The notes under the pieces were generated by a model that had not been told where the DNA came from, ran no database searches, and saw only the letters and a list, made by a program, of their open reading frames with translations. Positions 18,874 to 64,000 of a stretch of 64,000 nt of DNA are shown here, one piece after another (the stretch's first letter is position 1; every line of letters starts with the position of its first letter). Position numbers and translations under genes: made by a program. Location: the NCBI RefSeq assembly GCF_041381155.1, contig NC_091141.1, positions 22,216,828 to 22,280,827 of the forward strand. The letters are read 5' to 3'. This DNA is from Argopecten irradians. Taxonomy: Eukaryota; Mollusca; Bivalvia; Pectinida; Pectinidae.

Positions 18874-19971
18874 TTAGGTCATCTGACCGAAGGTCAGGAT
18901 GACCTATTGTGCGTAAGACTATTTATACAAAAGCCTACTCCTCCTTCATCCTTTGATGGATTTCATCCATATTTGGTTTGATACATCATTTGGGAAGGAC
19001 AATCATATTTTATATAAATGAGCCTGGTCCGACCCCTAGGGGCTGAGGGGTGGGGCACCAAAGGGGCAAATTTTCTTATTTTAAGCTTTAAAATCCTACT
19101 CCTCCTTCATCCTTGGATAGATTTCATCCATATTTGGTGTGAAACTTTATTAGGGAAGGACAATCATATTTTATATAAATGAGCTTGGTCCGACCCCTAG
19201 GGTCAGAGGGGCAGGGCCTCAAAAGGGCAAATTTTCTTAATTTTAGCTTTAAAATCCTACTCCTCCTTCATCCTTGGATGGATTTCATCCATATTTGGTG
19301 TGAAACTTCATTAGGGAAGGACAATCATATTTTATATAAATGAGTCTGGTCCGACCCCTAGGGTCAGAGGGGCGGGGCCCCAAAAGGGCAAATTTTCTTA
19401 TTTTAGCTTTAAAATCCTACTCCTCCTTCATCCTTGGATGGATTTCATCCATATTTAGTGTGAAACATCATTAGGTAAGGACATTCATATTTTATATATT
19501 TGAGATAGGTCTGACCCCTAGGGGCTGAGGGGTGGGGCCCCAAAAGGGCAAATTTTCTTAATTTAAGCTTTTAAATCCTACTCCTCCTTCATCCTTGGAT
19601 GAATTTCATTCATATTTGGTGTGAAACGTTATTGGGGAAGGACAATCATATTTTATATAAATGAGTCTGGTCCGACCCCTAGGGGCTGAGAGGTGGGGCC
19701 CCAAAAAGGGCAAATTTTCTTAATTTTAGCTTGCCCACTTCCTGTTTTCAGGTTTCGGTCTCTGTTCTCAATGAAAATTATTCTTTAGGGGTTTAAATTG
19801 ATGCCGAACAACATGCAAACATTTTCGTAAAGATTTTGGTATTCCAAGATGGCCGCTGACCCACTTCCTGTTTTCAGGTTTCAGTCTCCAATCTCAAGGA
19901 AAATTGGTCTATAGGGGTTTTAATTGATTCAGAAGGGGGAACTTCAGGTGAGGACAATCATATTTATCTTG
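18874..19971 (-). mobile_element. Tandem-core element, 161-bp units, hairpin plus CTAA end
   Basis: Read on the minus strand the 3' end is a hairpin (aggtcatcctgacc / ggtcagatgacct) closing in CTAA at 18874. The core holds five units of about 161 bp starting at 18934, 19095, 19256, 19416 and 19577, then two 127-bp half-type units from 19733 (cccacttcctgttttcaggt). The 5' end is near aacaagat at 19971. Hairpin plus CTAA resembles Helitron 3' ends, so I call it a non-autonomous Helitron-like element, by architecture only. Confidence 0.6.
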
Positions 19972-20376
19972 TTTTATTTGTCCGATCGTTCATTATTTCG
20001 TTCTTTCATTGTTCTCTTTTCTTTTGTTCGTTCGCTCATTATTCATTCACTCGACTTTAAAAAAGTGAAGGGAAAAGTATTAAAGCAATCTTCTGTTCGA
20101 TAACATTACTTATATCATTACTTGGGTGGAAATCCCGTGTTTTGATTGCGATCAAATCTAGTTCTTAATGATTTAATTTGGTTACAGCAGTAAAGTGTTG
20201 TTTATTGGTCCTTAAGCTTACGTACACACTGATAATAAATAGAAAGCTCTGTGTGAAGTGCATAATTCAACATATATATATATAGTGTGTTGACATTATA
20301 TATAATTTTCAAAGATTTAATGCAAGCATCTGGAATTTCACATCTTATTTTAGGTCGCATCGTTAAGTGTGGCCTA

Positions 20377-23300
20377 ATGAAGGCATCACCAATAGACAAA
20401 GAGCTAGCAATGTCTATACTTCATGCCCACTGTGAGGGATGCCATGACCGGCTCTGTAACGTGACTCCAGACAACATCAGTAGCTGTGCAGTTGTTGAAT
20501 GCAGTTTATCTTGTGGACAGCGACTCCACTTGTGTAAAATAGAGGACCATAAGAACATCTGTTCTCATGAAAAGGTATACTATATAATATAATAAATATT
20601 ATACATTACTTTTATATAAATGGTTATTTGACACAACCAACAAAATTATTACTTGTGATATTTCGATAACCACACAGTTATCTTCATCTGACGAAAATGA
20701 CCATTACAATATGTTTACACTGAGGAGGTCTGTTGGTACAAGATGGAAACCTCAGTGTGTAAACGTGGACGACCAGGTATTAAAGTAAGCAGAGCCGTGT
20801 CGACAGTCCCTTCGGCATACAACTCCTTATAGACATAAGTCTGTAGGATACAAATTACTCAAAGTAGTAAATATAGGGCACAGAAGTAATTCTAACTGTG
20901 AACGAAATATTGTCAATTTTTTAGGCGATCTGCCATTTTTCTTGAATATTCATATCAATTATTCAATAAATGTTGCTGTACTCTCCTGGTCATGAAAAAA
21001 GATCTACATTTAAATATTGATTAAATATGATTTAAATACAAACTGTATAATGTAATAGAATAGTAATTTTAAAATATTTCAGATTCCTTGTACCAATCAC
21101 CTCTATGGATGTCCACTGGAGATGACGAGAAATAAACTGAACGCCCACATCAGAGTATGTCCAGCTAGTGTTATACGCTGTGTTATTGAGTGGAATCGCT
21201 GGCCAATGCACTGTGCAGAGGAAAACATCAAGGCTCCACTACCTCTCGACAATCCACATGTGCGATGTGGACAGATGGATGTGGCGCTGGCCCTTAGGGA
21301 CCAGAGGATGTTGATGGAGTCTATGAAGGCCCCTCAGAGGATCAGAAAGGTCCTTCAGAATACCATCACACAGCGGTATCCTGGTGTTCCTTTTGAGAAT
21401 CGTAGTAATTCAATTGATTCAGACTTTCCGTCTGATACCGCGTCAGTGACTTTCTCCGACGATGATTTGGACACTCCATGGGAAAGTACAAGATTTCCTC
21501 CAGGCTTGAAAATGAGTGTTTGTTCGAAGCTCTATAGAACATCAAAGCATATATTGGATAATTCTAATGTAGCCTCCAATTCAACTTCTAATTACAAGTT
21601 GGGCCAGATGCAGGATCAATTATCAGATATAAGCGAGGAACACGATATCAGAACAAACACTTGTGATAGTGAAGAAAAGATCAATGCAAAAATGGAAGCT
21701 TTGTGTATAAAGCCCTCTGAATCAGATTCTGTGACTAATCAAATAGTCAACCAGGCAGACAGTTCTGGTGATAAACCAAATGAGAGTTCAATGTGCAATC
21801 TCAGTAGTGAAAGTATGGCCAACCTAACGTGTAATGTAGAATCTGTAGACAAGGCTAGCATTTGCGAGTCTGTTGACCAGTACAAGATCAGCGATGACCA
21901 ATTAGAAATATACAATAAAAACGTCAAACTCCATGAACTCTTGGGAGTGAGTCTCAACATTGAGTGTATTTCAAAATACATTGCCAAGCACCCGAAGATG
22001 TACACCTTTCTGTGTGCTCAGGATTTCCGTCGTGAGGAATACATGTGGCATTTCAAAAATGTCCACAATGATATCCACTGTGGAATAAATGGTATAGTGG
22101 AACAACGGTGTCCGCTTGCCTACCTGGGCTGTACTTACTCTTACAAGAGACTGGTTCCAGGTGAACCTCAGGGGAAAATTGTACACAGTTCTCTGCTTGA
22201 GAGCTTTGGTCTGCTTACTTGCCAAGACGAGGAAGAAAACACAGGAGAGCCCATTGACAACTCAAATCTATCTTACCAAAATGTTCAAAACTGCCATGAG
22301 GTTCATTCAGATTCCAACTGCCAAATAGCTGATGTTTGTGCCGAAATCCCGAGACACCGTCTACGAGAAGCCACACCAGAAATAGTGACCTCTCAAAAAT
22401 TTGACTCCAGAATTAAAGTGTATCCGAGATTCCGTAAACATTCTGGGGGATTTGACTTCCCAGGGCCATCATTGGTTGAGAATGGTATTGAGGATGTATC
22501 TCCGCTACTTTGTTTACCAGTAGAAGTATTGATACACTTGGCGACATTCCTGGACAGCTTTAGTCTTTGTAACTTGTCTCTCACCTGTAAACTCTTACGT
22601 CACGTCACCTGTTCTCTCCTGGTCAGTAAAGGAATGGTGACCCCTGTCTGGGAAAAGGTCAAGAATGGGTCAAAGGTCTCTTGGAAGACGTCACACAAGG
22701 TACAGTTCTTATTGACCCAGTTTATCATACATGGCATACTTTTATTATAATATTAGTTACTCAGTTTGTTAGTGACCTAATACGGAAAAATATTGGGTCT
22801 AAATAAACTTGTATCAGGCGAGACGAAGCCGAGCCTGATATATGTTTATTTTAGACCCAATATTTTTCTGTATCAGGTCACTAACAAACTGTGTAACGAA
22901 TTTATCCCGTCGAAGACCCTTTCAATGAAGTAACTGCAAAATGTATTAATATGTACTGTACTGAGTATGGAAACCAAAACGAAGACTCGAATGCGTTGTC
23001 ATGGTCCATTTCTGTTAAATAATCCTAAATAAGTGTTGCCGATTTCAGTTTGCTTTGAAAGTGGTCATCAACGCTATCATTCAAACATTTTGTCTCCATC
23101 TCGTTGAATGCCGTCGTTGCGAAGCGTTACTTGACCGCCATCTTGTTGCTAATGACGTCAGGGACAAAGAACGATAACTCTATCGTCCAAACCTGATACG
23201 GTTTCTACTAACCTGATACGACTATATATTGGATATCACGTGACATCATTTTAACAAATAGGAATACAAGATTCTTGTCTGAGGCGGGATGAATATATAT

Positions 23301-27950: not shown

Positions 27951-27961
27951 TTAACTTCAAT

Positions 27962-28090
27962 GTGATCAGGCGGTGTAGTGGATAAGCTTTTCAAACAATG
28001 GTCCATAAATAAAATGGTCAAGGATCACCTACACAATCACATTGGTTTTTCTCCGGGTAGTGCAATTTCCTCCCATCCCTTTCATGCTTA
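27962..28090 (+). repeat. tRNA-derived SINE fragment
   Basis: An A-box-like start (ggtgtagtggataagc) and a later ggtttttctccgggta are typical of bivalve tRNA-SINEs. The B box is worn. A second SINE in opposite orientation follows directly. Confidence 0.4.
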
Positions 28091-28099
28091 TATGTGTAA

Positions 28100-30455: not shown

Positions 30456-30456
30456 G

Positions 30457-30552
30457 TAAGAGATCCCAGAGGGTTCATGGCACCCACCATGGTAATGATG
30501 GAAGGATATTTTTGCTTTTCTCTTCTCTCCATCTTCTTTGGATTATTTAATA
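30457..30552 (+). mobile_element. Truncated 5' end of the 155-bp tandem-core element
   Basis: It starts aagagatcccagaggg and continues with cacccacca, as do the copies at 63014 and (inverted) 33446. It is cut off by the palindromic element that follows. Confidence 0.55.
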
Positions 30553-32187: not shown

Positions 32188-33446
32188 TTAGCCCACCATC
32201 ATCAGATGGTGGGCTATTCAAATCGCCTTTCGTCCGTGGTCCGTCCGTCCTTCCGTCCGTCCGTTAACAATTCTTGTTACCGCTATTTCTCTAAAAGTAC
32301 TGAAGGGATCTTTCTCAAATTTCATATGTAGGTTCCCCTAGGACCCTAGTTGTGCATATTGTATTTTGGGACTGATCGGTCAACAAGATGGCCGCCAGGC
32401 AGCCATCTTGGATTTTGATAGTTAAAGTTTGTTACCGCTATTTCTCAGAAAGTACTGAAGGGATCTTTCTCAAATTTCATATGTAGGTTCCCCTAGGACC
32501 CCAGTTGTGCATATTGCATTTTGGGACTGATCGGTCAACAAGATGGCCGACCAGCCGCCATCTTGGATTTTGATAGTAAAAGTTTGTTACGGCTAATTCT
32601 CAGAAAGTACTGAAGGGATCTTTCTCAAATTTCATATGTAGGTTCCCCTAGGACCCTAGTTGTGCATATTGTATTTTGGGACTGATCGGTCAACAAGATG
32701 GCCGACCAGCCGCCATCTTGGATTTTGATAGTTAAAGTTTGTTACCGCTATTTCTCAGAAAGCACTGAAGGGATCTTTCTCAAATTTCATATGTAGGTTC
32801 CCCTAGGACCCCAGTTGTGCATATTGCATTTTGGGACTGATCGGTCAACAAGATGGCCGCCAGGTAGCCATCTTGGATTTTGATAGTTAAAGTTTGTTAC
32901 CGCTATTTCTCAGAGAGCACTGAAGGGATCTTTCTCAAATTTCATATGTAGGTTCCCCTAGGACCCCAGTTGTGCATATTGCATTTTGGGACTGATCGGT
33001 CAACAAGATGGCCGACCGGTGGCCATCTTGGATTTTGATAGATAAAGTTTGTTACCGCTATTTCTCAGAAAGTATTGAAGGGATTGTTCTCAAATTTCAT
33101 ATGTAGGTTCCTCTATGACCCTAGTTCTGCATATTACATTTTGGGACTGATCGGTCAACAAGATGGCCGACCAGCAGCCATCTTGGATTTTGATAGTTAA
33201 AGTTTGTTACCGCTATTTCTCAGAAAGTATTGAAGGGATTGTTCTCAAATTTCATATGTAGGTTCCCCTAGGACCCTAGTTCTGCATATTACATTTTGAG
33301 ACCACCATCTTGGATTTTGATAGTTTAAAGTTTGAAAAGCAGAAAAAAGAAGTGTAAGTTTGAAAAGCAGAGAAAAGATCCCTCTTTCATTTGTCAGACA
33401 TAGATCAATCTTTGGTGGGCGCCAAGATCCCTCTGGGATCTCTTGT
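32188..33446 (-). mobile_element. Tandem-core element, seven 155-bp units
   Basis: Read on the minus strand, the 5' end is acaagagatcccagaggg near 33446 and the 3' end is a hairpin (agcccaccatc / gatggtgggct) followed by CTAA at 32188. Units start at 32276, 32431, 32586, 32741, 32896, 33051 and 33206, an exact 155-bp spacing. A run of ccgtccgtcc lies between hairpin and core. The architecture is shared with 18874-19971 and 46571-47234. No coding content; Helitron-like by its end. Confidence 0.7.
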
Positions 33447-33540
33447 TTATGTATTGGTTTGGACCAAAATTATACACAAGTTACGCAGACCTTTAGATTT
33501 TCTGTGAAATAGTCTAGGGATGGATATACATGTATATAGT

Positions 33541-33780
33541 TTAAGGGTGGATATAAAGATAATGATAGTAACCTCTGGAGTATCAAGGATGTTCAATGGT
33601 TTAGCTCGAATGTTGATCCCGATGGAAATGTAATGGCTGATGCCATTGCTGCATTCTAGTCTAGGGGTAGATATAACGATAATGATAGTAACCTCTGGAG
33701 TATCGAGGATGTTCCATAGTTTAGCTCGAAGGTTGATCCCGATGGAAATGTAATGGCTGATGCCATTGCTGCATTCATCA
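33541..33780. repeat. Two 120-bp direct repeats beyond the TRIM-like gene's 3' end
   Basis: Units 33541-33660 and 33661-33780 differ at only a few positions. The part gatagtaacctctggagtat also appears at 37077 and, inverted, at 36510. As 120 is divisible by three it gives a 40-residue repeat in one minus frame, which I take to be incidental. Confidence 0.7.
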
Positions 33781-37395: not shown

Positions 37396-37759
37396 TTAAA
37401 GATGCTCCACCGCCGACAAATGGTGTTTTTTCACTATCAAAAACAGGAGCAGACGATTTAGTATTTTTCTTCTGTTACAAAAGTTACTTCCTTTACACCA
37501 TTATCAACATTGAAAAGTTTGAGCTTCTAATTTTACTTAAAGTTAAAAATATGAAAAATAATTAATTGCATCCCGAAGAAAATCCGTGGCACTATATCCT
37601 ATATGGAATGAAGTACTGATTGCGCATGCGCCAAAGGCAAAATAAGTTATTTTATATTATTTTTTGTTATTATTAGACTTATATATACACGATAAAACGT
37701 CAATTATTGTTCAAGTGATGAATATCATTTATGCTCTGTCGGCGGTGGAGCATCTTTAA
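37396..37759. mobile_element. TTAA-flanked MITE, copy 2
   Basis: It is the best-preserved copy: ttaaagatgctccaccgccg at the left and cggcggtggagcatctttaa at the right are perfect inverses. The body matches 12067-12414 over its length. Confidence 0.8.
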
Positions 37760-39373
37760 TGCATCGATGATACTAAGGTACATACCATTTTTGTCTATTT
37801 GCATCTCAAGGCACAATTTTTTTTTATCTTTGTTTTGGTTCATATGGTGTTATTTATTCTACACTGGTTATATAACACCATGTTGCCCTCAACAAAAGTC
37901 CATAGTTGATATACATAGTCACACTATTACTATAAATAACTGCCCTTGTCACGCGATTTCTGTCCGATAACTTACAGGGTTCTGACATCTTACAATACTA
38001 AGTAAATAAAATTAAAACTTTATCAAAATTGATGATTCCTGATATATTTTATCTGTTTTTGGTTCTGATCTCGAGTGTGTTAGTATCTATTTTTTACGAT
38101 AGTAAAAATTCTGAATCATTAACTTAGCAGAATAAGTCATAAACTTTCATAAACATAGATTTTTAGTTTCATTTTGCACCTTTAAAACAATTCCAATCCC
38201 TGTGACATATACACATGTTCACATGACCGTTATCTATACATTATCATCTATCTACACACACAACACCATGAACATAAATATTATCAATATTGTCTTAATT
38301 CATATATAGGTTGTGATGTGAACAGTTTACCTGTTGTGGTGTACAGACATACTGACTTCATCATTGAACAGAGTATGTACTAAGTGACAGAATTTGTAAG
38401 TATAGCAAAAGCTTTGGCCTTCGCCCCAATACCAGGCGGTAATGTACATCCCGTTATTTGGTTTGGTTTTACACAATGTATCGCTGGACAGCCTTCATAT
38501 TGCATATTAATTAATTTCACGTCCTATGAATAGACATGGTCATTTAAGGATGTGCCAGGCTTAGATGGCTGGGAAAGCCTTAGTATCAAGAGGAAAAACA
38601 GCGACCAGTACCTGGCAACTGCCCCGCATGGGATTCGAACTCGACAAAAAGGTGAAGGGTTTGTAGTAACATGTCAGGACATCTTAACCACTTGGTCACT
38701 GCGGTCCCTATACATATGTAGCTACCGTGCTTGAAAATTCGTGTTTTGGAAGACTGTGGAAATAAATATCCGTCCTTCAAACTATATATAAGTGGTAGGT
38801 TAAAAGTAAGACTTTGAATTCAAAGAATCGTTCATGAGCCATTCCCTTATCTTATCGCAGTCGTTTTAAATAGTCCGCTCTCTACCCTGAAAAAGCACGT
38901 GAATTGACCTTAAGCATGTTCAGTCTTGATGTTACATAGATAGGCAGCTTGCTGTTAATATTATTGTACACCTACTTACAAGTTATATGATCGACACCAC
39001 TAAAAAGAAACCCAGTTCATGCACAAGGAAAGCCAGTCACAAAAACTATGTATATTAGGAGCATGAAGCTATGTATACTCAACACAAAGTAAGTTGCTTT
39101 TTAAAGATGCAAATACTGCCTTACTATAACTCAGTCATTCATATTCATATATTGTCCGACAAAATGTTGGCATATATTCATGTAGATTCGATGTAATGAT
39201 CATTTAACAGATAATTCACGAGTTTGATTTCACATGGACGCATTTTGTTACCTATTTTCTTCTAAAATAAACAATAGAAGCTTTAATTCCTGTTCGATGG
39301 AAATACACCATATCTCTTGTTCAGTGTGTATGTAACTTTCATTTTCTATTCGTTTCGTATGTGTATGTTTCAG
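37760..39373. other. Upstream region of the B-box gene
   Basis: Apart from the SINE, it holds a good plus-strand donor (gtaagtat) at 38396 that could end a leader exon splicing to 39374. No coding exon is seen. Confidence 0.3.
38510..38715 (-). repeat. tRNA-derived SINE, minus strand
   Basis: On the minus strand an A box (GTGACCAAGTGGTTAAGAT) and a B box (GAGTTCGAATCCCATGC) form a tRNA-like head. The body reads cctggcacatccttaaatga and then aggacgtgaaatt, the tail common to molluscan SINEs. The gap between the boxes is too long for a clean tRNA. Confidence 0.7.
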
Positions 39374-41928: not shown

Positions 41929-42735
41929 AGTTATGTCCCCTGTCTTGCACACGATCACTCACAGTGGCTGAGTGACGTCTACTATTCAGAGTTATGTCCC
42001 CTGACATTCACACGATCACTCACAGTGGCTGAGTGACGTCTACTATTCAGAGTTATGTCCCCTGACTTCCACATGATCACTCACAGTGCCTGAGTGACGT
42101 CTACTATTCAGAGTTATGTCCCCTGACATACACATGATCACTCACAGTGCCTGAGTGACGTCTACTATTCAGGGTTATGTCCCCTGACATACACACTATC
42201 ACTCACAGTAGCTGAGTGACATCTGCTATTCAGAGTTATGTCCCCTGACTTACACATGATCACTCACAGCAGCTGAGTGCCGTCTACTATTCAGGGTTAT
42301 GTCCCTGACATACACACTATCACTCACAGCAGCTGAGTGCCGTCTACTATTCAGGGTTATGTTCCTGACATACACACTATCACTCACAGTGCCTGAGTGA
42401 TGTCTACTATTCAGGGTTATGTCCCCTGACATACACACTATCACTCACAGCAGCTGAGTGACGTCTACTATTCAGGGTTATGTCCCCTGACATACACACT
42501 ATCACTCACAGTGGCTGAGTGACGTCTACTATTCAGGGTTATGTCCCCTGACATACACATTATCACTCACAGTAGCTGAGTGACGTCTACTATTCAGGTT
42601 TATATTCCCTGACATACGCATGATCACTCACAGTAGCCGAGTAACATCTACTATTCAGAGTTATGTCCCCTGACATACACATGATCACTCACAGTAGCTG
42701 AGTAACATCTACTATTCAGAATTATATCCCTTGAA
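41929..42735. repeat. 61-bp tandem array, about 13 units
   Basis: The unit contains gatcactcacagtggctgag, tgacgtctactattcag and ttatgtcccctgaca, with period 61. Units differ by scattered substitutions and a few single-base indels. It lies between the convergent B-box gene and ZCCHC17, probably in the ZCCHC17 3' untranslated region. Confidence 0.85.
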
Positions 42736-45800: not shown

Positions 45801-47938
45801 TACCTTGTATGTGCATGACCAGGGCCTAGAAGTGATACCTAGAAGTGACATACATGTACCTTGCTTGTACATGATCAGGGCCTAGAAGTGACATACATTG
45901 TACCTTGCTTGTACATTGGTTGGGTCCTCATCTTCTCCTGTTGTCTGATTAACACACTTCATAGATAATCCCACTTTGTCATCCTGTCAAAATCCATCAA
46001 TAATTTTATACAAGGTCTAGCTCTGATATAACCCACAATCAGATCTGTTAATATTAGGCTTTAATTAAAACAGATATTGACAGTTTGAGATTATAGTGAA
46101 AACATGGTCATTCATATTCAACTAATTCATACACATATCCTCAGAATATTCAGATTTTCAGCAAAATCATAAATTCATACACAGAGAATAGCCATAATAA
46201 ACAGTAAACCCATTAAAATAAAATTTCTGTTAAAATAAAATAAGTTAAAATTGGATCATTACTAACATACATTTAAAACTACTGTTATAAAGTAGGAATT
46301 TACCTCTATAGATATAACTTTACAGTATACTTTTTCTCTGACACTTAACATCTCAGAAGGATCTTCGACTCTGGCCTTCGACATCTGTGACTTGTGAACC
46401 AAACCTGTTTTTAAAAAAAAATGATCAGTAGAAAATGGTTTTGAATAATGATTTTTACACTAAATAATTATTTCAATTTTCGGGGAACTGTGCCTTTTGA
46501 ATAAGGAAAATACTCATTTTATTCCATCAAAAACATAAAAAAAAGTATCACTTGTCTACAGATTTATAAAACAAGAGGCCCAGAGGGCCTGTATCGCTCA
46601 CCTGGTTTGTAATGCCAAGTAATGTTCTGAATACAGGTTCATTGTTTCTTTTCTGAAGGAATGAGAATATATACCTCTAATTCCCCTATTGGGCCCCGCC
46701 CCTCCTGCCCCTGGGGGGTCAGAGCCAAAATTTATACAAGTTCTGTTCCCCTTTTCCCAAGGATGTTTGTGGCCAAATTTGGTTACAATCCATGCAGAAC
46801 TCTATGACTAATAGCGATTTAAAGGATTTACCTCTATTTCCCCTATTGGGCCCCACCCCTCCTGCCCCTGGGGGGTCAGAGCCAAAATTTATACAAACTC
46901 TGTTCTTATTCCCCCAAGGATGTTTGTGGCCAAATTTGGTTACATTCCATGCAGACTAGTAGTGATTTAAAGGATTTACCTCTATTTCCCCTATAGGGCC
47001 CCACCCCTCCTGCCCCCGGGGGGTCAGAGCCAAAATTTATACAAGTTCTGTTCCCCTTCCCCCAAGGATGTTTGTGGCCAAATTTGGTTACATTCCATGC
47101 AGAACTCTAGGACTAGTAGCGATTTAAAGGAAATGTTGACGGACAGACGGACGCCGACGGACGCCTACGGACGACGGACGACGGACGCCGCGCCATGACA
47201 TAAGCTCACCGGCCCTTCGGGCCAGGTGAGCTAAAAATGATCGACCATCATGTTACATTCAAATTTTGATCTTACAATTTTACCTTGTTTTCTGGAATCA
47301 GGAATCTTAATGAATGCTCCATAAGCTTGTACACTTGCTACCTATATCCAAACAGAATATCAAACAATTTTAATTTGATCATACAAATGTCAGTTGTTAT
47401 ATTTATTTATATACCCTATTTGATCCAATAAGTACCAGATAAACAGCAGGCTCTGATTTGATAGATGTAGATCTTTACATTGTACATTAATAACATTATA
47501 CGCTATCTTGATCAGCTTTTGTTTAAGCACCTACTAATGTTGAACTACTCCAACAATGTATTACAATGTAGACGTATCTCTGTAATTTGACTGAATGGTG
47601 ATTAGATGTACATGTATACCTTACTCCAACAATGTTGACCTGCAATGTTAGAGGTATAGCACGACGAGACACTTTTGGAACATTTCGTCTTGTCTAATAA
47701 ATATTAGATAACGTCCGTTAAAAAAAACTACTGACCAGTCGACTCTCATATTAGGGTAGTAATGTATACCTCTAACATTGTTGGAGTACACATGCACTTC
47801 TACTTTCATTTTGAAGAATTGAATAATTACCTCTCCTTGAAACACCGAGTAGAGATCCGGAAGGTCCTCCTTTTTAAAAAATTTGTAGCGGTCTTTACGA
47901 CCACCGTCCTCTTTATCGTCATAAATACGCTTAGACAT
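42874..47938 (-). CDS. ZCCHC17: ZCCHC17 (S1 domain and CCHC zinc-knuckle nucleolar protein)
   Basis: RNA-binding protein linked in vertebrates to the 60S ribosomal subunit, nucleolus and splicing. Coding exons on the minus strand: 47938-47831, 47341-47284, 46404-46304, 45983-45904, 45183-45080, 44666-44539, 43974-43876, 42936-42874. All are GT-AG and sum to 246 residues; human has 241. The S1 domain spans about residues 26-105 (LPDLYSVFQGE, then VASVQAYGAFIKIP, GLVHKSQMS, DDKVGLSMKCVNQTTGEDED). The zinc knuckle is Cys144, Cys147, His152, Cys157. The tail is Lys/His-rich (KKEKKKHKKHKHHKYSSS) and ends KSRKHDSSSSDG-stop, as in the family. The frame is also open upstream to 48079, but MSKRIYDD fits best as the start. 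Intron 4 begins in a minisatellite that repeats the exon end, and a tandem-core transposon sits in intron 2. Confidence 0.95.
43540..43865 (-). promoter_or_regulatory. Cluster of AGGTCA direct-repeat (DR1-like) motifs in ZCCHC17 intron 7
   Basis: TGACCTTTGACC[C/T] occurs at 43545, 43820 and 43851. On the minus strand these read [AG]GGTCAAAGGTCA, the DR1 element bound by HNF4/RXR-type nuclear receptors. They are embedded in a degenerate gaccttt-rich stretch, so they could be simple-sequence drift. Confidence 0.3.
45535..45915. repeat. Minisatellite starting at a ZCCHC17 exon-intron junction
   Basis: About nine units of 36-44 bp contain gatcagggcctagaagtgac and a piece like ataccttgcttgtacatg. 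The latter copies the end of exon 4 and its donor on the minus strand. Confidence 0.75.
46571..47234 (+). mobile_element. Tandem-core element in ZCCHC17 intron 2
   Basis: The 5' end is acaagaggcccagagggcct. About three units of 148-157 bp follow (unit starts near 46673, 46830, 46978; gggccccacccctcctgccc). Then a ggacggacg-type run, and a terminal hairpin (gctcaccggccc / gggccaggtgagc) closing in CTAA at 47231-47234. Confidence 0.7.
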
Positions 47939-50240: not shown

Positions 50241-53200
50241 ATGAACATCTCCTTCAGAACAACTCCCTTGATACATCTCCTTCAGAACAACTCCTTGATA
50301 CATCTCCTTCAGAACAACTCCCTTGATACATCTCCTTCAGAACAACTCCCTTGATACATCTCCTACTGTACAACTCCCTTGATACATCTTCTACTGTAAC
50401 AACTCCCTTGATACATCTCCAGCTGAACAACTCCCTTTAATTACATCTCCTACTGTACAACTCCCTTGATACATCTCCTGCTGTACAACTCCCTTGATAC
50501 ATCTCCTGCTGTACAACTCCCTTGATACATCTCCTACTGTACAACTCCCTTGATACATCTCCTACTGTACAATTCCCTTGATACATCTCCTGCTGTACAA
50601 CTCCCTTGATACATCTCCTACTGTACAACTCCCTTGATACATCTCCTACTGTACAATTCCCTTGATACATCTCCTGCTGTACAACTCCCTTGATACATCT
50701 CCTACTGTACAACTCCCTTGATACATCTCCTGCTGTACAACTCCCTTGATACATCTCCTACTGTACAACTCCCCTTGATACATCTCCTACTGTACAACTC
50801 CCTTGATAATACATCTCACTACTGTACAACTCCCTTGATACATCTCCTGCCTGTACAACTCCCTTGATACACCTCCTGATACATCTCCTACACTGTACAA
50901 CTCCCTTGATACATCTTCCTACTGCTGTACAATTCCCTTGATACATCTCCTACTGTACAACTCCCTTGATACATCTCCTACTGTACAACTCCCTTGATAC
51001 ATCTCCAGCTGTACAACTCCCTTGATACATCTCCTACTGTACAACTCCCTTGATACATCTTCTACTGTAACAATTCCCTTGATACATCTCCAGCTGTACA
51101 ACTCCCTTGATACATCTCCTACTGAACAACTCCCTTGATACATCTCCTACTGTACAACTCCCTTGATACATCTCCTACTGTACAACTCCCTTGATACACA
51201 TCTCCCTGCTGAACAACTCCCTTGATAACATCAACTCCCTTGTTCCATAAACTGCCCTTGATACATCTCCTACTGTACAACTCCCTTGATACATCTCCTT
51301 CTGTACAACTCCCTTGATACATCTCCAGCTGTACAACTCCCTTGATACCTCTCCTACTGTACAACTCCCTTGATACCTCTCCTACTGTACAACTCCCTTG
51401 ATACATCTCCTGCTGTAACAACCTCCCTTGATACATCTCCCTGCTGTACAACTCCCATTGATACATCTCCTTGCTGTACAACTCCATGATACATCTCCTA
51501 CTGTACCAACTCCCTTGATACATTCTCCTAGCTGTACAACTCCCTTGATACATCTCCTACTGTACAACTCCCTTGATACATCTCCTACTGTACAACTCCC
51601 TTGATACATCTCCTGCTGTACAACTCCCTTGATACATCTCCTACTGTACAACTCCCTTGATACATCTCCTGCTGTACAACTCCCTTGATACATCTCCTGC
51701 TGTACAACTCCCTTGATACATCTCCTACTGCTGTACAACTCCCTTGATACATCTCCAGCTGTACAACTCCCTTGATACATCTCCAGCTGTACAACTCCCT
51801 TGAATACATCTCCTTCTGTACAACTCCCTTGATACATCTCCAAGCTGTACAACTTCCTATGAGCACGATCTCCTGCTGTACAACTCCCTTGATACATCTC
51901 CAGCCTGTACAACTCCCTTGATACATCTCCAGTACTGTACAACTCCCTTGATACATCTCCTACTGTACAATTCCTTGATACATCTCCTGCTGTACAACTC
52001 CCTTGATACATCTCCTGCTGTACAACTCCCTTGATACATCTCCTACTGTACAACTCCCTTGATACATCTCCTACTGCTGTACAATCCCCTTGATACATCT
52101 CCAGCTGTACAACTCCCTTGATACATCTCCTGCTGTACAACTCCCTTGATACATCTCCTGCTGTACAACTCCCTTGATACATCTCCTACTGTACAACTCC
52201 CTTGATACATCTCCTGCTGTACAACTCCCTTGATACATCTCCTACTGTACAACTCCCTTGATACATCTCCAGCTGCATTACAACTGCCCTTGTTACATCT
52301 CCTACACTCTGTACAACTCCCTTGATACATCTCCTGCTGTACAACTCCCTTGATACATCTCCTACTGTACAACTCCCTTGATACATCTCCTACTGTACAA
52401 CTCCCTTGATACATCTCCTACTGTACAACTCCCTTGATACATCTCCTACTGTACAACTCCCTTGATACATCTCCTACTGTACAACTCCCTTGATTTATCT
52501 CCTACTGTACAACTCCCTTGATACATCTCCTACTGTACAACTCCCTTGATACATCTCCTACTGTACAACTCCCTTGATACATCTCCTGCTGTACAACTCC
52601 CTTGATACATCTCCTACTGTACAACTCCCTTGATACATCTCCTACTGTACAATTCCCTTGATACATCTCCTGCTGTACAACTCCCTTGATACATCTCCTA
52701 CTGTACAACTCCCTTGATACATCTCCTACTGTACAACTCCCTTGATACATCTCCTGCTGTACAACTCCCTTGATACATCTCCTACTGTACAACTCCCTTG
52801 ATACATCTCCTGCTGTACAACTCCCTTGATACATCTCCTACTGTACAACTCCCTTGATACATCTCCTACTGTACAACTCCCTTGATACATCTCCTACTCT
52901 ACAACTCCCTTAATGCATCTCCTTCAGTACAACTCCCTTGATACATCCCCTACTGTACAACTCCCTTGATACATCTCCTACTGTACAACTCCCTTGATAC
53001 ATCTCCTACTGTACAACTCCCTTGATACATCTCCTGCTGTACAACTCCCTTGATACATCTCCAGCTGTACAACTCCCTTGATACATCTCCAGCTGTACAA
53101 CTCCCTTGATACCTCTCCTACTGTACAACTCCCTTGATACATCTCCTACTGTACAACTCCCTTGATACATCTCCTACTGTACAATTCCCTTGATACATCT

Positions 53201-56200
53201 CCAGCTGTACAACTCCCTTGATACATCTCCAGCTGTACAACTCCCTTGATACATCTCCTACTGTACAACTCCCTTGATACATCTCCTACTGTACAACTCC
53301 CTTGATACATCTCCTTCAGTACAACTCCCTTGATACATCTCCTGCTGTACAACTCCCTTGATACATCTCCTGCTGTACAACTCCCTTGATACATCTCCAG
53401 CTGTACAACTCCCTTGATACCTCTCCTACTGTACAATTCCCTTGATACATCTCCTACTGTACAATTCCCTTGATACATCTCCTGCTGTACAACTCCCTTG
53501 ATATAACTTGAATAGCAACTTCCTTGATACACTCTGCCTACTAGTACAATTCCCTTGATACATCTCCAGCTGTACAACTCCCTTGATACATCTCCTACTG
53601 TACAACTCCCTTGATACATCTCCTTCTTACAACTCCCTTGATACATCTCCTACTGTACAATCTCCTTGATACATCTCCTGCGTAACAACTCCTTGATACA
53701 TCTCCTACTGTACAACTCCCTTGTATACATCTCCTACTGCTGTACAATCCCCTTGATACATCTCCTAGCTGGTACAACTCCCTTGATACATCTCCTAGCT
53801 GTACAACTCCCTTGATACATCTTGATAGCATCTCCAGCTGTACAACTCCCTTGATACTATCTCCTACTGTACAACTCCCTTGATACATCTCCTACTGTAC
53901 AATTCCCTTGATACATCTCCTGCTGTACAACTCCCTTGATACATCTCCTGCTGTACAACTCCCTTGATACATCTCCTACTGTACAACTCCCTTGATACAT
54001 CTCCTACTGTACAACTCCCTTGATACATCTCCTGCTGTACAACTCCCTTGATACCTCTCCTACTGTACAACTCCCTTGATACATCTCCTACTGTACAACT
54101 CCCTTGATACATCTCCTACTGTACAACTCCCTTGATACATCTCCTACTGTACAATTCCCTTGATACATCTCCAGCTGTACAACTCCCTTGATACATCTCC
54201 AACTGTACAACTCCCTTGATACATCTCCTACTGTACCCTTGATACAACTCCTCTGTACTGTACAAACTTGATACATCTCCTGGCTGTACAACTCCTTTTG
54301 ATACCATCCTAGCTGCTACAACTCCCTTTATACATCTCCTGACTGTAACAACTCCCTTGAATACATCTCCTGCTGTACAACTCCCTTGATACATCTCCAG
54401 CTGTACAACTCCCTTGATACATCTCCTACTGTACAACTTCCCTTGATACATCTCCTACTGTACAACTCCCTTGATACATCTTCTACTGTACAAATTCCCT
54501 TGATACATCTCCTGCTGTACAACTCCCTTGATACATCTCCTACTGTACAACTCCCTTGATACATCTCCTGCTGTACAACTCCCTTGATACCTCTCCTACT
54601 GTACAACTCCCTTGATACATCTCCTACTGTATCAACTCCCATCATCCCTGCTGTACAACTCCCTTGATACATCTCCTGCTGTACAACTCCCTTGATACAT
54701 CTCCTACGCTGTACAACTTCCTTGAACATCTCCTGCAGTACAACTCCCTTGATACATCTCCTACTACAAGCCTCCCTTGATACAATCTCCTGTGTGTTCA
54801 AACTCCCTTGATACATCTCCTGCTGTACAACTCCCTTGATACATCTCCCTGCTGTACAACTCCCTTGATACATCTACATACAACTCCCTTGATTCATCTC
54901 CAGCTGCTACAACTCCCTTGATACAATCTCCTACTGTACAACTCCCTTGATACATCTCCTACTGTACAACTCCCTTGATACATCTCCTGCTGTACAACTC
55001 CCTTGATACATCTCCTACTGTACAACTCCCTTGATACATCTCCTACTGTACAACTCCCTTGATACATCCCCTACTGTACAACTCCCTTGATACATCTCCT
55101 AGCTGTACAACTCCCTTGATACATCTCCTGCTGTACAACATTCCCTTGATACATCTCCTACTGTACAATTCCCTTGATACATCTCCTGCTGTACAACTCC
55201 CTTGATACATCTCCTACTGTACAACTCCCTTGATACATCTCCTACTGTACAACTCCCTTGATACCATCTCCTACTGTACAACTCCCTTGATACATCTCCT
55301 ACTGTACAACTCCCTTGATACATCTCCTACTGTACAACTCCCTTGATACATCTCCTACTGTACAATTCCCTTGATACATCATCCTACTGTACAACTCCTT
55401 GATACATTCTCCTGCTGTACAACTCCCTTGATACATCTCCTGCTGTACAACTCCCTTGATACATCTCCTACTGCTGTACAACTCCCTTGATACATCTCCA
55501 GCTGTACAACTCCCTTGATACATCTCTCCTACTGTACAACTCCCTTGATACATCTCCTACTCTGTACAACTCCCTTGATACATCTCCAGCTGTACAACTC
55601 CCTTGATACATCTCCTACTGTACAACTCCCTTGATACATCTCCTACTGTACAACTCCCTTGATACATCTCCTGCTGTACAACTCCCTTGATACATCTCCT
55701 ACTGTACAATGCCCTTGATACGTCTCCTACGGTACAACTCCCTTGAATACCTCTCCTACTGTACAACTCTCCTTGATACATCTCCTACTGTACAATCCCT
55801 CCTTGATACATCTCCAACCTGTACAACTCCCTTGATACATCTTCTACTGTACAATTCCCTTGATACATCTCCTGCTGTACAACTCCCTTGATACATCTCC
55901 TACTGTACAACTCCCTTGATACATCTCCTGCTGTACAACTCCCTTGATACATCTCCTACTGTACAATTCCCTTGATACATCTCCTGCTGTACAACTCCCT
56001 TGATACATCTCCTGCTGTACAACTCCCTTGATACATCTCCTGCTGTACAATTCCCTTGATACATCTCCAACTGTACAACTCCCTTGATACATCTCCTACT
56101 GTACAACTCCCTTGATACATCTCCTACTGTACAACTCCCTTGAAACATCTCCTGCTGTACAAACTCCCTTGATACATCTCCTACTGTACAACTCCCTTGA

Positions 56201-59200
56201 TACATCTCCTACTGTACAACTCCCTTGATACATCTCCTACTGTACAACTCCCTTGATACATCTCCTACTGTACAATTCCCTTGATACATCTCCTGCTGTA
56301 CAACTCCCTTGATATACATCTCCTACTGTACAACTCCCTTGATACATCTCCTGCATGTACAACTACCCTTGATACACTCCCCTTGCATACATCTCCTTCA
56401 GTACAACTCCCTTGATACATCTCCTACTGTACAACTCCCTTGATACATCTCCTACTGTACAACTCCCTTGATACATCTCCTACTGTACAACTCCCTTGAT
56501 ACATCTCCTACTGTACAACTCCCTTGATACATCTCCTGCTGTACAACTCCCTTGATACATCTCCTGCTGTACAACTCCCTTGATACATCTCCTGCTGTAC
56601 AACTCCCTTGATACATCTCCTACTGTACAACTCCCTTGATACATCTCCTGCTGTACAACTCCCTTGATACATCTCCTTCAGAACAACTCCCTGATACATC
56701 TCCTTCTGTACAACTCCCTTGATACATCTCAAGCTATACAACTCCCTTGATACATCTCCTGCTGTACAACTCCCATGATACATCTCCAGCTGTACAACTC
56801 CCTTGATACCTCTCCTACTGTACAACTCCCTTGATACCTCTTCTACTGTACAATTTCCTTGATACATCTCCTTCAGTACAACTCCCTTGATACATCCTTG
56901 TACAATATACATCTCCTGCTGTGCAACTTCCCCTGATACATCTCCTGGCTGTACAACTCCCTTGATACATCTCCTGCCTGTACAACTCCCATTGATACAT
57001 CTCCTGCTGTACAACTCCCTTGATACCTCTCCTACTGTACAACTCCCTTGATACATCTTCTAACTGTACAACTCCCTTGATACATCTCCTTCAGTACAAC
57101 TCCCTTGATACATCTCCTGCTGTACAACTCCCTTGATACATCTCCAGCTGTACAACTCCCTTGATACATCTCCTACTGTGTTCCCAATTCTCCCCTTGAC
57201 AATTCCCTTGATACATCTCCTGCTGTACAACTCCCTTGATACATCTCCTGCTGTACAACTCCCTTGATACATCTCCTAGCTATACAACTCCCTTGATACA
57301 TCTCCAGCTGTACAACTCCCTTGATACATCTCCTACTGTACAACTCCCTTGATACATCTCCAGCTGTACAACTCCCTTGATACATCTCCTACTGTACAAC
57401 TCCCTTGATACCTCTCCTACTGTACAACTCCCTTGATACATCTCCTACTGTACAACTCCCTTGATACATCTCCTACTGTACAACTCCCTTGATACATCTC
57501 CAGCTGTACAACTCCCTTGATACATCTCCTACTGTACAACTCCCTTGATACCTCTCCTACTGTACAATGCCCTTGATACATCTCCTACTGTACAATTACC
57601 TTGATTTATCTCCTACTGTACAACTCCCTTGATACATCTCCTACTCTACAACTCCCTTAATGCATCTCCTTCAGTACAACTCCCTTGATACATCCCTACT
57701 GTACAACTCCCTTGATACATCTCCTACTGTACAACTCCCTTGATACATCTTCTACTGTACAATTCCCTTGATACATCTCCAGCTGAACAACTCCCTTGAT
57801 ACATCTCCTACTGTACAACTCCCTTGATACATCTTCTACTGTACAATTCCCTTGATACATCTCCTGCTGTACAACTCCCTTGATACATCTCCTCAGTACA
57901 ACTCCTGATAACAACTCCCTTGATACAACTCCCTTGATACCATCTCCTACTGTACAACTCCCTTGATACATCTTCGCTACTGTACAACTCCCTTGATACA
58001 TCTCCTGCTGTACAACTCCCTTGATACATCTCCTGCTGTACAACTCCCTTGATACATCTCCTACTGTACAACTCCCTTGATACATCTCCTACTGTACAAC
58101 TCCCTTGATACATCTCCTACTGTACAACTCCCTTGATACATCTCCTACTGTACAACTCCCTTGATACATCTACCTACTGTACAACTCCCTTGATACATCT
58201 CCTACTGTACAACTCCTTGATACATCTCCTGCTGTACAACTCCCTTGATACATCTCCTACTGTACAACTCCCTTGATACATCTCCTACTGTACAACTCCC
58301 TTGATACCATCTCCTACTGTACAACTCCTTGATACATCTCCTACTGTACAACTCCCTTGATACATCTCCAGCTGTACAACTCCCTTGATACATCTCCCTA
58401 CTGTACAACTCCCTTGATACATCTCCTTCAGTACAACTCCCTTGATACATCTCCTGACTGTACAACTCCCTTGATACATCTCCTACTGTACAACTCCCTT
58501 GATACATCTCCTCCCTGCTGTACAATTCCCTTGATACATCTCCTGCTGTACAACTCCCTTGATACATCTCCACTGTACAACTCCCTTGATACATCTCCTA
58601 CTGTACAACTCCCTTGATACATCTCCTACTGTACAACTCCCTTGATACATCTCCTACTGTACAACTCCCTTGATACATCTCCTACTGTACAACTCCCTTG
58701 ATACATCTCCTACTGTACAACTCCCTTGATACATCTCCTGCTGTACAACTCCCTTGATACATCTCCTGCTGTACAACTCCTTGATACATCTCCTGCTGTA
58801 CAACTCCCTTGATACATCTCCTGCTTGTACAACTCCCTTGATACATCTCCTGCTGTACAACTCCCTTGATACATCTCCTACTGTACAACTCCCTTGATAC
58901 ATCTCCTGCTGTACAACTCCCTTGATACATCTCCTGCTGTACAACTCCCTTGATACATCTCCTGCTGTACAACCCTTAACTTGATAACATCTCCTGCTGT
59001 ACACTCCCTGATAATACAACTCCTACTGTACAACTCCCTTGATACGTCTCTGCTGTACAACTCCCTTGATACATCTCCTGCTGTACAACTCCCTTGATAC
59101 ATCTCCTGCTGTACAACTCCCTTGATACATCTCCTACTGTACAACTCCCTTGATACATCTCCTGCTGTACAACTCCCTTGATACATCTCCTGCTGTACAA

Positions 59201-59590
59201 CTCCCTTGATACATCTCCTGCTGTACAACTCCCTTAATACATCTCCTACTGTACAACTCCCTTGATACGTCTCCTGCTGTACAACTCCTTTGATACATCT
59301 CCTGCTGTACAACTCCCTTGATACATCTCCTACTGTACAACTCCCTTGATACATCTCCTGCTGTACAACTCCCTTGATACATCTCCTACTGTACAACTCC
59401 ATTGATACATCTCCTACTGTACAACTCCATTGATACATCTCCTACTGTACAACTCCCGTGATACATCTCCTACTGTACAACTCCATTGATACATCTCCAA
59501 CTGTACAACTCCATTGATACATCTCCAACTGTACAACTCCATTGATGCATCTCCTACTGTTCAACTCCTTTGATAATCTCCTGCTACATA
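50241..59590. repeat. 28-bp satellite, about 330 units over 9.3 kb
   Basis: The unit is acaactcccttgatacatct followed by cctactgt. Main variants change the third block: tactgt, tgctgt, agctgt, ttcagt, aactgt; a second site alternates acaactcc and acaattcc. Divergence is highest at both ends and in patches near 50780-51520, 53490-53830, 54230-54930, where single-base insertions and deletions cluster. In other stretches units are nearly identical. The minus strand gives many Met-Tyr-Gln-Gly type frames, only because 28 units of three bases return to phase every three repeats. No gene is supported. Confidence 0.95.
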
Positions 59591-60139
59591 AACCAACCCT
59601 TCAATACATTTGCTATGCAAATTGATTTTTTGCATCTATTGTTCTTTATTTTAAAGAGGAATGTTGATTGTTAACAAAGTTCTTTGAAGCTGTATACCTC
59701 CAATCAATTATTTTTTTCATTTATCCTTAATACGTGCATTTTCTGTAGCTACCACTGCAGAAATCTCCCGAGTTAAAATCTTATCTATGTCTTTTTTATT
59801 AATTAATGACAACATAACAAGTAAGTAGTGTAACTGTAATTTATTTTTGTAAATATAGAAATACTATATTAAGTGTACATAGCTTTGATCTGTCGTAACA
59901 ATAATATGATGCAGGCACAGAAACAAAGAAATCAAATGTGGTGACACATACAACCATTAATCTCAATTGTTGTCAACCAATATATTAGGCACAATATATA
60001 TATATGTAATGGAATGATAATGCATGTTCATTACTCATACATTTAAATTACTCCACTCCTTCAGTTGGTAGATAAATACTCGTGAGGTGAACTATACTTT
60101 TGATATTATCAATCTTCATACTATTATAATGTATACTAT
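59591..60139. other. AT-rich DNA after the satellite
   Basis: No gene or clear repeat was seen besides short TA runs. Confidence 0.45.
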
Positions 60140-60800
60140 GGATATTCCGCCTTTGTATATTACAGAGTTATATGCCCTTGTTAGTAGGTGTCAATTTTGA
60201 CTTCATCACGTTATTTCGTGAGCAAAACTTACATGAAAAATTTGACGTTGCGCTCTTCAATACATGATGTTACAATCAATACATTGTCTACCCGTAATAT
60301 GCAATCATCAATAGTTAGGATACATGTATCGTGAATCCTAAACTGATAAGCCTGGCTGTTGTATGGACATTAAACAAAATAGACTTAAACTACAGCCATT
60401 AGAAGTAAAATCATCACATCCTCGTTATACTGATCTACAAGGGGAGACAATCACACGAAACTTTCATTGAACATACCTAACAAAACTCAAAAAGACATAT
60501 TTCTTCTTTGCATACATGTAATACAGAGTTATCTCCCTTGCATGTAGGTATCAGTTGATTTCATTACTAATATAAGTTATTACTAACATATTTGACATAA
60601 CATATTCCTTCTTTGTATGTTACAGTTATATCCCATGCATGTAAATATTGATTGTGATGTGATTACTTTGTGATCAAATATTATGTTGTATTCTTTGAAA
60701 AATAGGACTTCACGCTCACAAAAACATGATTTAACAATCAGTACTTACCCGCAAGTGCAGATAACTCTGTAATATGCAAATGCAGTTATTGTGTATATCA
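60140..60800. mobile_element. Cluster of copies of the GTAGGTGTTGATT palindromic MITE
   Basis: Left-arm pieces occur near 60150 (cagagttatatgcccttg), 60523 (cagagttatctcccttgc) and 60625, and right-arm pieces near 60270 (caatcaatacattgtctacc) and 60738 (cagtacttacccgcaagt, gcagataactctgtaatatg). Two or three diverged insertions, one possibly inside another. Confidence 0.55.
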
Positions 60801-61965
60801 TTTTACAATCGTATTTCAAAAGAAAAGGACAACCTCTATGATATACATTGCTCAAACCTGTTTAAAAAACAAACCATATAAAGTTTGCCATCTACTGTAT
60901 TATCTACAAATATATTTACAATGCATAGAATTCAAGCAGTTGTTTTAGGAAAGAAACACATTAGAAATATATATATATTTTTTAAACTAAAGCCATCTTT
61001 GCTTTTTGAAAATATGAAGGTGTTAATGAATGCCAAAGTACATGTATTACATAAGTGATTGAAGGAGCAATGATTTTTAAATCTTCATAGTTACTTTTGT
61101 AACAATATTTGTTTTCTAGGAATATCAAATTACAAATTGTAAACACAAGCAACATAGAGCGAGTCATTTAAATATTGAAAGCACTACACAACATCTTCTT
61201 ATCAAAGACTTTTTACAAAGTGCTTCATAAATGGCACAAAATTGTATAAATACATGTACAATCTTATCACAGAGGGTACATACCATACATATAATTTCAA
61301 CTGAGCCTGCTCTGAAAAATTAAATGCATAAAAAATGATCCACAATGATACACTATAATGTTAGGAATTCTCAATATCCCACTGGGTGAACTGTTAACCA
61401 ACTTATTTCTGTGGTGACATAATTTTGTGATGTCAAAAATAAATTGGGGTGTGTAATTATCAATCATGTTATTTTATCTGTATACATGTTTAACAGGACA
61501 ATTACTGTATAGTTGATTATTTTAGCGGATTAAGATTTTTGTATCATGGACCTTATACCAGAAAATTAAATTTTCAGTCTACATTTGTATAATATATATA
61601 CATGTACCACCTTGAACAAATTTTAATATTTCATGGATTGAAATTTTACAACCCCCGAAAATATCATCTCTGCAAAAATAACCAACCATACGCCAGTATA
61701 CAGTATATTAATAGGCCATATAGTACATCTGATATTAAATCTATAAAGTTTGAATTTCCTCTGAACCTTTACCAGATAAAGAAATCCCTGTGGCCATAAA
61801 TAGGTATAAAATAAACAAAAAATTAAATCAACATTTAATTTGCCGCCTAAAACATGTACAATGAAAATGATAATTTACAATATACAAGAAGAATGTTGAT
61901 AACATATATAATTTTCATGTACATGACATCGTGTACCATATTTATCTTGTTATAAGCCCATGAAC
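60801..61965. other. Unannotated AT-rich DNA
   Basis: No supported coding exon, RNA gene or array. Confidence 0.45.
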
Positions 61966-62482
61966 CAGGGCCCAGTTTCATGAACTTTCCTTAACCTAAA
62001 ATTCCTCATAGGGAAGCATAACAGATTTTAAATAACTTCAAGACTCCTTAAGATATTTTCCTTAACTTCTGTATTACTTTCCTACGTGGAAGTTTAAGTT
62101 AAGGAATTTCAAATTTAAAGATTCTCCACTGCAGATATGCAGAGCGTAAACGACACCCATCATTTGAACAACTGCTGTTTACTCATGTATGTCTAATTAA
62201 CAAAAAAATACATATAAAATAATTTATTTTACTTTTGGTAAATGCACATTCAGTATATAGGCCATAGTGACATGGATTTTTTTAGAACGCAATCAATTAT
62301 ATCAAGTTAAATAAGAAGCTAAAACTTTTCAATGCTTTTAATGGGGTAATGCAAGTAATTTTTGGTGTGAAGTAAGAACATTTGTAACTGAAGAAAAATA
62401 AATATTCGTCTGCTTCTGTTTTTTATTGAGAAAAAATACAATTTGTCAGCAGTGAAGCATCTTTAAGAAACTGGGCCCAGGT
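61966..62482. mobile_element. Short palindromic element (gggcccagtttca ends) split by an insertion
   Basis: The left end cagggcccagtttcatgaac and the right end gaaactgggcccagg are inverse. About 168 bases remain if the TTAA element at 62115-62466 is discounted. Confidence 0.65.
62115..62466. mobile_element. TTAA-flanked MITE, copy 3, inverted and diverged
   Basis: Read on the minus strand it matches 37396-37759 throughout (ttaaagatgcttcactgctg; cttcagttacaaatgt; aaaagttttagcttctt) but with many substitutions. TTAA borders are kept. It is nested in the element above. Confidence 0.7.
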
Positions 62483-63013
62483 GTTTTCCAAGGGGCAGCA
62501 TATATATCATGATCAATACAAATGTATCAACTTGACTATTACAAGGCATGGGCATATGACAGATACCTCTGGTGTTACATTGTAACCCAAAACTTGTGTC
62601 CAATCCCTGTTGTCAATTATTTATGACAATAAAAATGTTTCAAATCGCTATAACATAGCACAATAGGTGTGGTCACACAATGAAAGGACACTTTGTTTTC
62701 GCAGATGGAATGATTACGAGATGAATATATTTGTCTGTTTCCTGGTCAAGTTTCCATTTAATATATTAATTATCATATTAATGTTATTTCTTATAATAAA
62801 ATATATTTTCATTGATAAATACATGAAAAGCACAAAGCCATTAAATCTTTTTTGATTTCATGCTCTTATTGTTTTCTTATTTGGATTTAGTAAATAAAGT
62901 ATCCAAGGTATTATCCAAGTAGACAAGTTACCTTGAAAAATAGATACCATATTCACCTTAATTAGCGCCCAGGGTTCTTATAAAAATAACACAAAAGGGG
63001 CTCTTATTAAGTA
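62483..63013. other. AT-rich DNA, no gene seen
   Basis: A fragment near 62949 (accatattcaccttaattag) resembles the ends of the MITE at 12480. Confidence 0.4.
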
Positions 63014-64000
63014 ACAAGAGATCCCAGAGGGATCTTGGCGTCCACCAAAGAATGATCTATATCTGACAATGGAAAGATGGATCTTTTCTCTACTTTTTAA
63101 ACTTTTTCAAACATACTACACATAAAATTTCAGACAGATCACTTCAGTACCTTTTGAGAAATAGTAGTAACAAACTTCAACTATCAAAATCCAAGATGCT
63201 TCCTTGACGGCCATCTTGTAGATCAATCGGTCCCAAATCACAAAATGCACAACTAGGGCCCTAGGGGAACCTACATGTGAAATTTGAGAAAGATCCATTC
63301 AATACTTTCTGAGAAATAGCGATAACAAACTTTGAATAGGTATCAAAATCCAAGATGGCTGCCTGGCATATGAATTTTGAGAAAGATCCCTTCAGTACTT
63401 CTGAGAAATAGCGATAACAAACTTTGAATGACAAAATCCGAGATGGCTGCCTGGCTGCCATATATGCATCTTGTTGACCGATCGGTCCCAAAATGCAATA
63501 TGCACAACTACGTCCCTAGGGGAACTTACATATGAAATTTGAGACAGATCCCTTCAGTACTATCCCAGAAATAGCGATAACAATTTTTAACTATAAAAAT
63601 CCAAGATGGCGGCCTGGTCCAAAAATGCAATATGCACAACAAGGGCCCTAGTGGAACCTACAGTTAAATTTGAGAAAGATCCCTTCAGCACTTTTTGAGA
63701 AATAGTGATATCAAACCTTAACTATCAAAATCCAAGATGGCCGCCTGGCCGATCAGCCTCAAAATCTGTATTGCACAACTAGGGACCGAGGGTACCCTCC
63801 ATGTGAAGTTTGAACAAAATCCCTTTAGTAGTTCTCAAGAAATATCGATAACAAACTTCAACTGCCAAAATCAAAGATGGCTGTCTGGCTGCCATCTTGT
63901 TTTTCTGATCAGCCACAAAATCTGTATGGCACAACTATGGACCAAGGGGACCCTCCATGTCAAGTTTGAACAAAATCCCTGCAGTAGTTTTAAGAAATAG
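63014..64000 (+). mobile_element. Tandem-core element, 155-bp family, cut by the window end
   Basis: The 5' end acaagagatcccagaggga is the same as that of 32188-33446 but in the opposite orientation. Diverged units follow (aaatccaagatggctgcc, gagaaatagcgataacaaac). Its 3' hairpin end would lie beyond 64000. Confidence 0.65.

Follow-up and report, generated by a model that had tools for sequence, protein, structure and literature searches.

Families of probable HINEs with satellite-type tandem cores, and the direction of their ends, in Argopecten irradians

The 64,000-nucleotide stretch of Argopecten irradians DNA analysed in the present study (contig NC_091141.1, positions 22,216,828 to 22,280,827, forward strand; hereafter the window) contains elements at 32188, 46571 and 63014 that are very probably HINEs, non-autonomous rolling-circle transposons of the Helentron class, belonging to several families and carrying satellite-type tandem repeats inside. 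The parts of a HINE follow each other in the order T-run, TAG, hairpin of the 5' subterminal inverted repeat (subTIR), GTCC microsatellite, tandem repeats, 3' subTIR, palindrome, CTTGT and T; this layout is visible in the elements of the window and in copies elsewhere in the genome (846 Mb searched). An earlier note on this DNA had proposed Helitron-like elements with exchangeable satellite cargo. Its observation is partly confirmed and its interpretation partly supported: rolling-circle elements with satellite cargo are present, and Helentron/HINE, rather than canonical Helitron, is the fitting class. A corrected direction, one corrected border and a short common 3' signature are added to what is known from oysters. 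The features of families A and B in the window are listed below.

32188..33446, + strand: complete family A HINE, length 1259, with both ends and matching subTIRs
32189..32216, + strand: 5' subTIR hairpin of family A; fold −14.1 kcal/mol, z −8.7; recurs in family copies
32230..32264, + strand: GTCC-type microsatellite of the family A element, recognised by sequence; fits the Cg_HINE description
32274..33302, + strand: core A, 155-bp tandem repeat, 6.6 copies (repeat finder)
33413..33420, + strand: 3' subTIR TGGTGGGC of family A, reverse complement of GCCCACCA at the 5' end
33425..33446, + strand: 3' palindrome AGATCCC(TCT)GGGATCT, then CTTGT, of family A; 3358 exact genome places (reversed string)
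46571..47234, − strand: complete family B HINE, from its ends and subTIRs; runs 5' to 3' on the − strand
46576..46590, − strand: 3' palindrome AGGCCC(TCT)GGGCCT of family B, with CTTGT at 46571-46575; 5069 exact genome places
46596..46605, − strand: 3' subTIR CCAGGTGAGC of family B, reverse complement of GCTCACCTGG at the 5' end
46806..47103, − strand: core B1, 148-bp tandem repeat, 2.0 copies; homologous to core C
47203..47234, − strand: 5' subTIR hairpin of family B; fold z −6.3
63014..64000, − strand: family A HINE with decayed core, 3' end at 63014, running past the window edge
30456..30476, − strand: fragment, diverged family A 3' end, 3 mismatches

The element ends probably read 5' TTAG-hairpin ... 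hairpin-CTTGT 3', since this layout matches the published order of Cg_HINE and of DINE-1/HINE-Mo. In both complete elements (32188-33446 and 46571-47234), a GTCC/GACG-type microsatellite and, further in, the array come after the hairpin of the TTAG side, and on the ACAAGAG side the arm of the hairpin recurs as a short reversed copy, along with a palindrome distinct from it. The GTCC-type run that the earlier note had seen beside the hairpin of two elements is present at 32188 and 46571. The note took the hairpin and CTAA for the 3' end, which in HINE terms is the 5' end; CTAA is TTAG reversed, and its outer A's largely belong to the target T-run, so the argument from the classic Helitron CTRR falls. 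The start strings (ACAAGAGATCCCAGAGGGATC at 63014, reversed at 33446, and ACAAGAGGCCCAGAGGGCC at 46571) are present, and the start ACAAGAG..CCCAGAGGG is, as proposed, shared across unlike cores, but it is really a reversed 3' end. The A and B end strings had the many exact genome places given above, and reversed-pattern controls had 0.

Besides these, two further types of 3' end were found. End type D, GAGGCC(AWT)GGCCTC-TTGT, has 67 genome places and was found inside locus L023 with its 3' side only; end type E terminates in GGTCCATGGGCC-TCTTGT (112 genome places of the end string), and the one complete copy of family E observed, in locus L080, carries a 160-bp array and a 5' hairpin of its own. 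A common 3' terminus, a hairpin followed by (C)TTGT, is thus real across the four end types A, B, D and E, with differing stems, and the common terminal plan across unlike cores described in the earlier note is borne out. Since the stems are family-specific in all four types and own subTIRs were seen for A, B and E, they appear to be parallel families within a single class and not one element that swaps its cargo. None of six end strings was matched in the text of the literature, where sequences are rarely printed in running text.

The sampled loci of A and B are the first 30 listed places of each family on contig C1 (exact matches, loci of about 3 kb, of which L003 and L064 overlap), a sample in which long and diverged elements are under-represented. 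The subTIRs of the A and B elements, the 5' one lying 2-4 nt from the end, and the hairpin or inverted repeat beside the 5' subTIR, followed by a microsatellite, are present; the 3' palindrome is evident from sequence in A, B and D and from folding also in A, and is weak in E. HINEs lack coding capacity; in keeping with this, no Rep/helicase frame was recognised inside an element when the 40 longest of the 55 open frames listed for the 60 sampled loci were inspected by eye, about 1.5 kb of interior being covered per locus. The terminal hairpins are real, as had been claimed, with DNA fold z-scores of −8.7, −6.3 and −6.0 in the window; over all 5' hairpins and the A 3' hairpin, z ranges from −2.4 to −8.7. 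Thirty pairings of 5' and 3' ends, three of which repeat another element, gave 27 distinct complete elements, and in 23 of these (A 13/17, B 10/10) the 3' end carries the subTIR of the same element with at least 7 of 10 bases identical; this level was reached by the 5' subTIR of the other family in 2 of 340 comparisons and by letter-shuffled subTIRs in 152 of 1350. The counts are not independent, because copies within one family are related. In L010, the family A 5' end is present twice together with its host flank (at 369 and 705, 336 bp apart).

Several results weigh against this assignment. The 3' hairpins of B (z −0.84) and E (z +0.85) fold no better than shuffled sequences, and the A elements of L007, L010, L029 and L030 fit their own subTIR at just 6/10, a level often reached by letter-shuffled subTIRs. 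Within-family covariation of the hairpins gives no clear signal, with 38 and 28 single-sided changes and 1 both-sided change versus about 0.3 expected, the expectation assuming roughly 4000 intact copies by our estimate. No autonomous element with these ends was found among the Helentron loci examined, and no hairpin with CTTGT follows three Helentron frames within the sequence inspected (about 2 kb each in L091 and L093; about 100 bases in L100).

The flanks of the elements are T-rich. The base after CTTGT is T in 26/33 (A) and 32/35 (B) 3' ends, and position −2 before TTAG is T in 19/20 (A) and 13/14 (B) 5' ends; the 3' rows had been reduced from 34 to 33 and from 37 to 35, respectively (same or too short flank), and the 5' readings from 49 to 37, by dropping wrong-strand hairpin readings, repeats of the same flank and those with fewer than 20 flanking bases (L002, L025, L095, L096). 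Flanks were long enough for an empty-site search in 28 of the 30 end pairings, and three joined flanks matched uninterrupted sequence across the junction, two of them being usable; the third candidate (L029) was left out, as it extends no more than 10 bases beyond the junction. For the A element of L008, five empty paralogous sites are present (72-86%), three of them within the window, and the insertion in L007 has empty sites in L079 and L012 (76-82%). The three in the window are as follows.

37563..37760, + strand: empty paralogue of the repeat hosting the L008 A element, 85% over the joined flanks
12226..12415, + strand: second empty paralogue of the same host repeat, 84%
62115..62293, − strand: third, more diverged empty paralogue, 72%

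Both insertions with paralogous empty sites (L008 and L007) lack a target-site duplication; such a duplication, which the earlier note had named as contrary to its proposal, does not occur in these cases. The anatomy of the elements and their insertion into T-runs, like this lack of duplication, are directly observed. The three window sequences are copies of a dispersed repeat of about 200 bp that is a HINE target elsewhere. In L023 (1260-2560), an A element lies in a T-run right after a D 3' end, with D tail on both sides of it; a pair of D tails at nearly equal spacing was found on contig C575 (1278 vs 1275 bp).

The tandem cores agree with the earlier description in part. Arrays of 148-161 bp were confirmed at 18874 (161 bp), 32188 (155 bp) and 46571 (148 bp); at 63014 the repeat finder gives periods of 92 and 131 bp (63274-63455 and 63484-63748), indicating a decayed array, the units of which nevertheless resemble the 155-bp core A of 32188, as claimed (86% over 155 bp). 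Core A was rightly set apart from the cores of B and C, to which it is no more similar than shuffles are, but the cores at 18874 and 46571 are related to each other: core C and core B1 share 70% over 122 bp (E 5e-8), a score reached by 0 of 200 shuffles. Cores B1, B2 and C are homologous, their scores exceeding all 200 shuffles (z 11.1, 6.5 and 4.5), and cores A and E clearly fit no other core, the closest case being A with B2, reached by 15 of 200 shuffles. A single diverged family, the other outcome contrary to the proposal, is thus partly borne out, for cores B and C but not for A and E. Two published primer strings of BIV160 (BIV160/Cg170 satellite family) were compared with five cores on both strands, and 7 of the 20 comparisons were reached by at most 15 of 300 shuffles, with mixed strands, which makes no convincing case for relatedness. 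The palindrome with CTTGTT in core A was considered as a mimic of the 3' end and dropped; in the orientation of the element, the palindrome is followed by GATTTT. The core A monomers (32274-33302) also contain CAAGATGGC and GCCATCTTG facing each other, which may resemble paired YY1-type sites.

Cargo is mostly not exchanged. With the core of each locus taken as its best match no more than 700 bases from the end, all 30 sampled A ends had core A behind them, and the 30 B ends were followed by B1 (21) or B2 (9); the best-fitting core had a single orientation relative to the end in 60/60 loci. A single replication system able to exchange its satellite cargo freely, along the lines suggested in the earlier note, would account for the hairpin and (C)TTGT common to A, B, D and E and for the two core types behind B ends; yet it is unlikely, given the constant pairing of core A with A ends in the sample, the homology of B1 and B2 and the family-specific subTIRs. 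Because B1 and B2 are homologous, divergence of one core suffices and no swap is needed, so that exchange is weakly supported at best.

That these are canonical Helitrons ending in a hairpin and CTRR is very improbable: the hairpin does adjoin CTAA when read in the earlier orientation, but the published definition of canonical Helitrons comprises a 5' TC, a 3' CTRR end and a target site between A and T, features that the A and B ends do not have. These ends read TTAG.. and ..CTTGT and lie in T-runs, and a microsatellite beside the hairpin and CTAA end marks the 5' side in HINEs. Miniature inverted-repeat transposable elements (MITEs) or other cut-and-paste DNA transposon families with inverted-repeat ends, which would likewise be short, free of a recognised gene and provided with inverted subterminal repeats, can be set aside almost entirely, considering that neither of the two insertions with an empty site shows a target-site duplication and that the two ends are dissimilar outside the subTIR.

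As HINEs, the elements resemble several described systems. The excerpted text on Cg_HINE of the Pacific oyster gives the order 5' subTIR with inverted repeat, microsatellite, repeats, 3' subTIR and palindrome (PMC7492417); the part order, the GTCC-type microsatellite, central repeats of fixed orientation, the 3' palindrome and insertion at TT without duplication are the same here, a likeness that concerns the described layout and not a letter-by-letter comparison of ends. Cg_HINE group 2 combines related flanks with wholly unrelated repeats, like the end plan shared here, and in the same excerpts the authors linked no autonomous oyster Helentron to Cg_HINEs (PMC7492417). HINE-Mo and DINE-1, as far as they are covered by the excerpts of PMC4067079, share subTIRs, the 3' palindrome, T-rich insertion without duplication and optional tandem repeats; in HINE-Mo the palindrome and the 3' end are about 8-35 bp apart, compared with about 5 here, and, unlike here, autonomous Helentron partners are known. 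The bivalve Pearl-type elements CvA, CvE, CvG and DTC84 are likewise modular, with short satellite-like arrays, as judged from partial descriptions (PMC11136912, PMC5139131). The A. irradians elements show a route by which satellite-like repeats reach thousands of dispersed genome places.

By analogy with the known family, a Helentron Rep/helicase acting in trans would nick the T-run adjoining the 5' subTIR hairpin; one strand would be peeled off through the repeats until the 3' palindrome and CTTGT stop the process, and the copy would join another T-run without target-site duplication. The trans-acting enzyme and the nicking and stopping roles of the two hairpins are thus proposed from what is known of Helentrons. 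The end signatures (5' TTAG-hairpin, 3' hairpin-CTTGT) allow a direct search for the autonomous partner, for which the corrected direction matters.

The genome contains at least 104 Rep-domain matches, and L041 also has a PIF1 helicase match. Neighbours were searched among 100 of the 112 E places and 89 of the 104 Rep matches, second pieces of one gene being left out. On contigs C193 and C184, a rare 3' end of type B follows the Rep start in the same orientation, at distances of 6331 and 6332 bp downstream; the Helentron copies there are near-identical (99.75%), so the two represent one event at most, and the complete list of 28 exact matches of this end has none near a further near-identical copy on contig C13. 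Contig C25 has a D 3' end 4755 bp past a weak match to the Helentron C-terminus (E 0.33). The C193/C184 and C25 neighbours are candidate leads to a partner by place alone, and B ends are, by our estimate, dense enough for such Rep neighbours to occur by chance. The B 3' end of L057 was considered as the end of a Rep fragment and rejected, as a B element adjoins a short Rep frame there. A Pfam search assigned no endonuclease to a C-terminal tail of 43 aa; the tail is presumably the Helentron endonuclease, judging from an SDH motif and from its position at the end of Rep frames. It is conceivable, though doubtful, that a single set of Helentron enzymes recognises nothing but the shared 3' terminus (hairpin, (C)TTGT and T) and that the self-matching subTIR pair of each family serves as an end-matching code in cis; unrelated satellite cores (A, the B1/B2/C group and E) would then ride one machine, and the partner that the oyster study did not find would be supplied.

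The element at 18874 represents a further family, C, with the following features in the window.

18875..18906, + strand: 5' hairpin of family C; fold z −6.0; its pattern has 530 places in the genome
18929..19732, + strand: core C, 161-bp tandem repeat, 5.0 copies (repeat finder); related to core B1
19733..19972, + strand: tail of the family C element, part of which recurs in another C copy (L096)

The border that the earlier note had set at 19971 is not a family end, because its last 26 bases have a single place in the 846 Mb at up to 2 mismatches, which is the window itself. The C copies of L024 and L095-L097 have the same 5' hairpin and a fuller GTCC-type run, which is reduced in the window copy. 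In each of L095 and L096, the first C copy contains the start of a second one in a T-run, the left junction being seen; these C-in-C junctions may represent either nesting or a tandem of truncated copies, and both nested Helitrons and tandem arrays of truncated Helitrons appear in the published text consulted. In L029, an A 5' end similarly begins in a T-run within another A copy, again with the left junction seen.

Other repeats of the window include a 120-bp direct repeat in two copies just past the A element (33537-33776), a 61-bp tandem array of 13.2 copies (41929-42734) and a 28-bp minisatellite of about 9.3 kb (50243-59582), reported as two adjoining rows of 22.3 and 307.5 copies.

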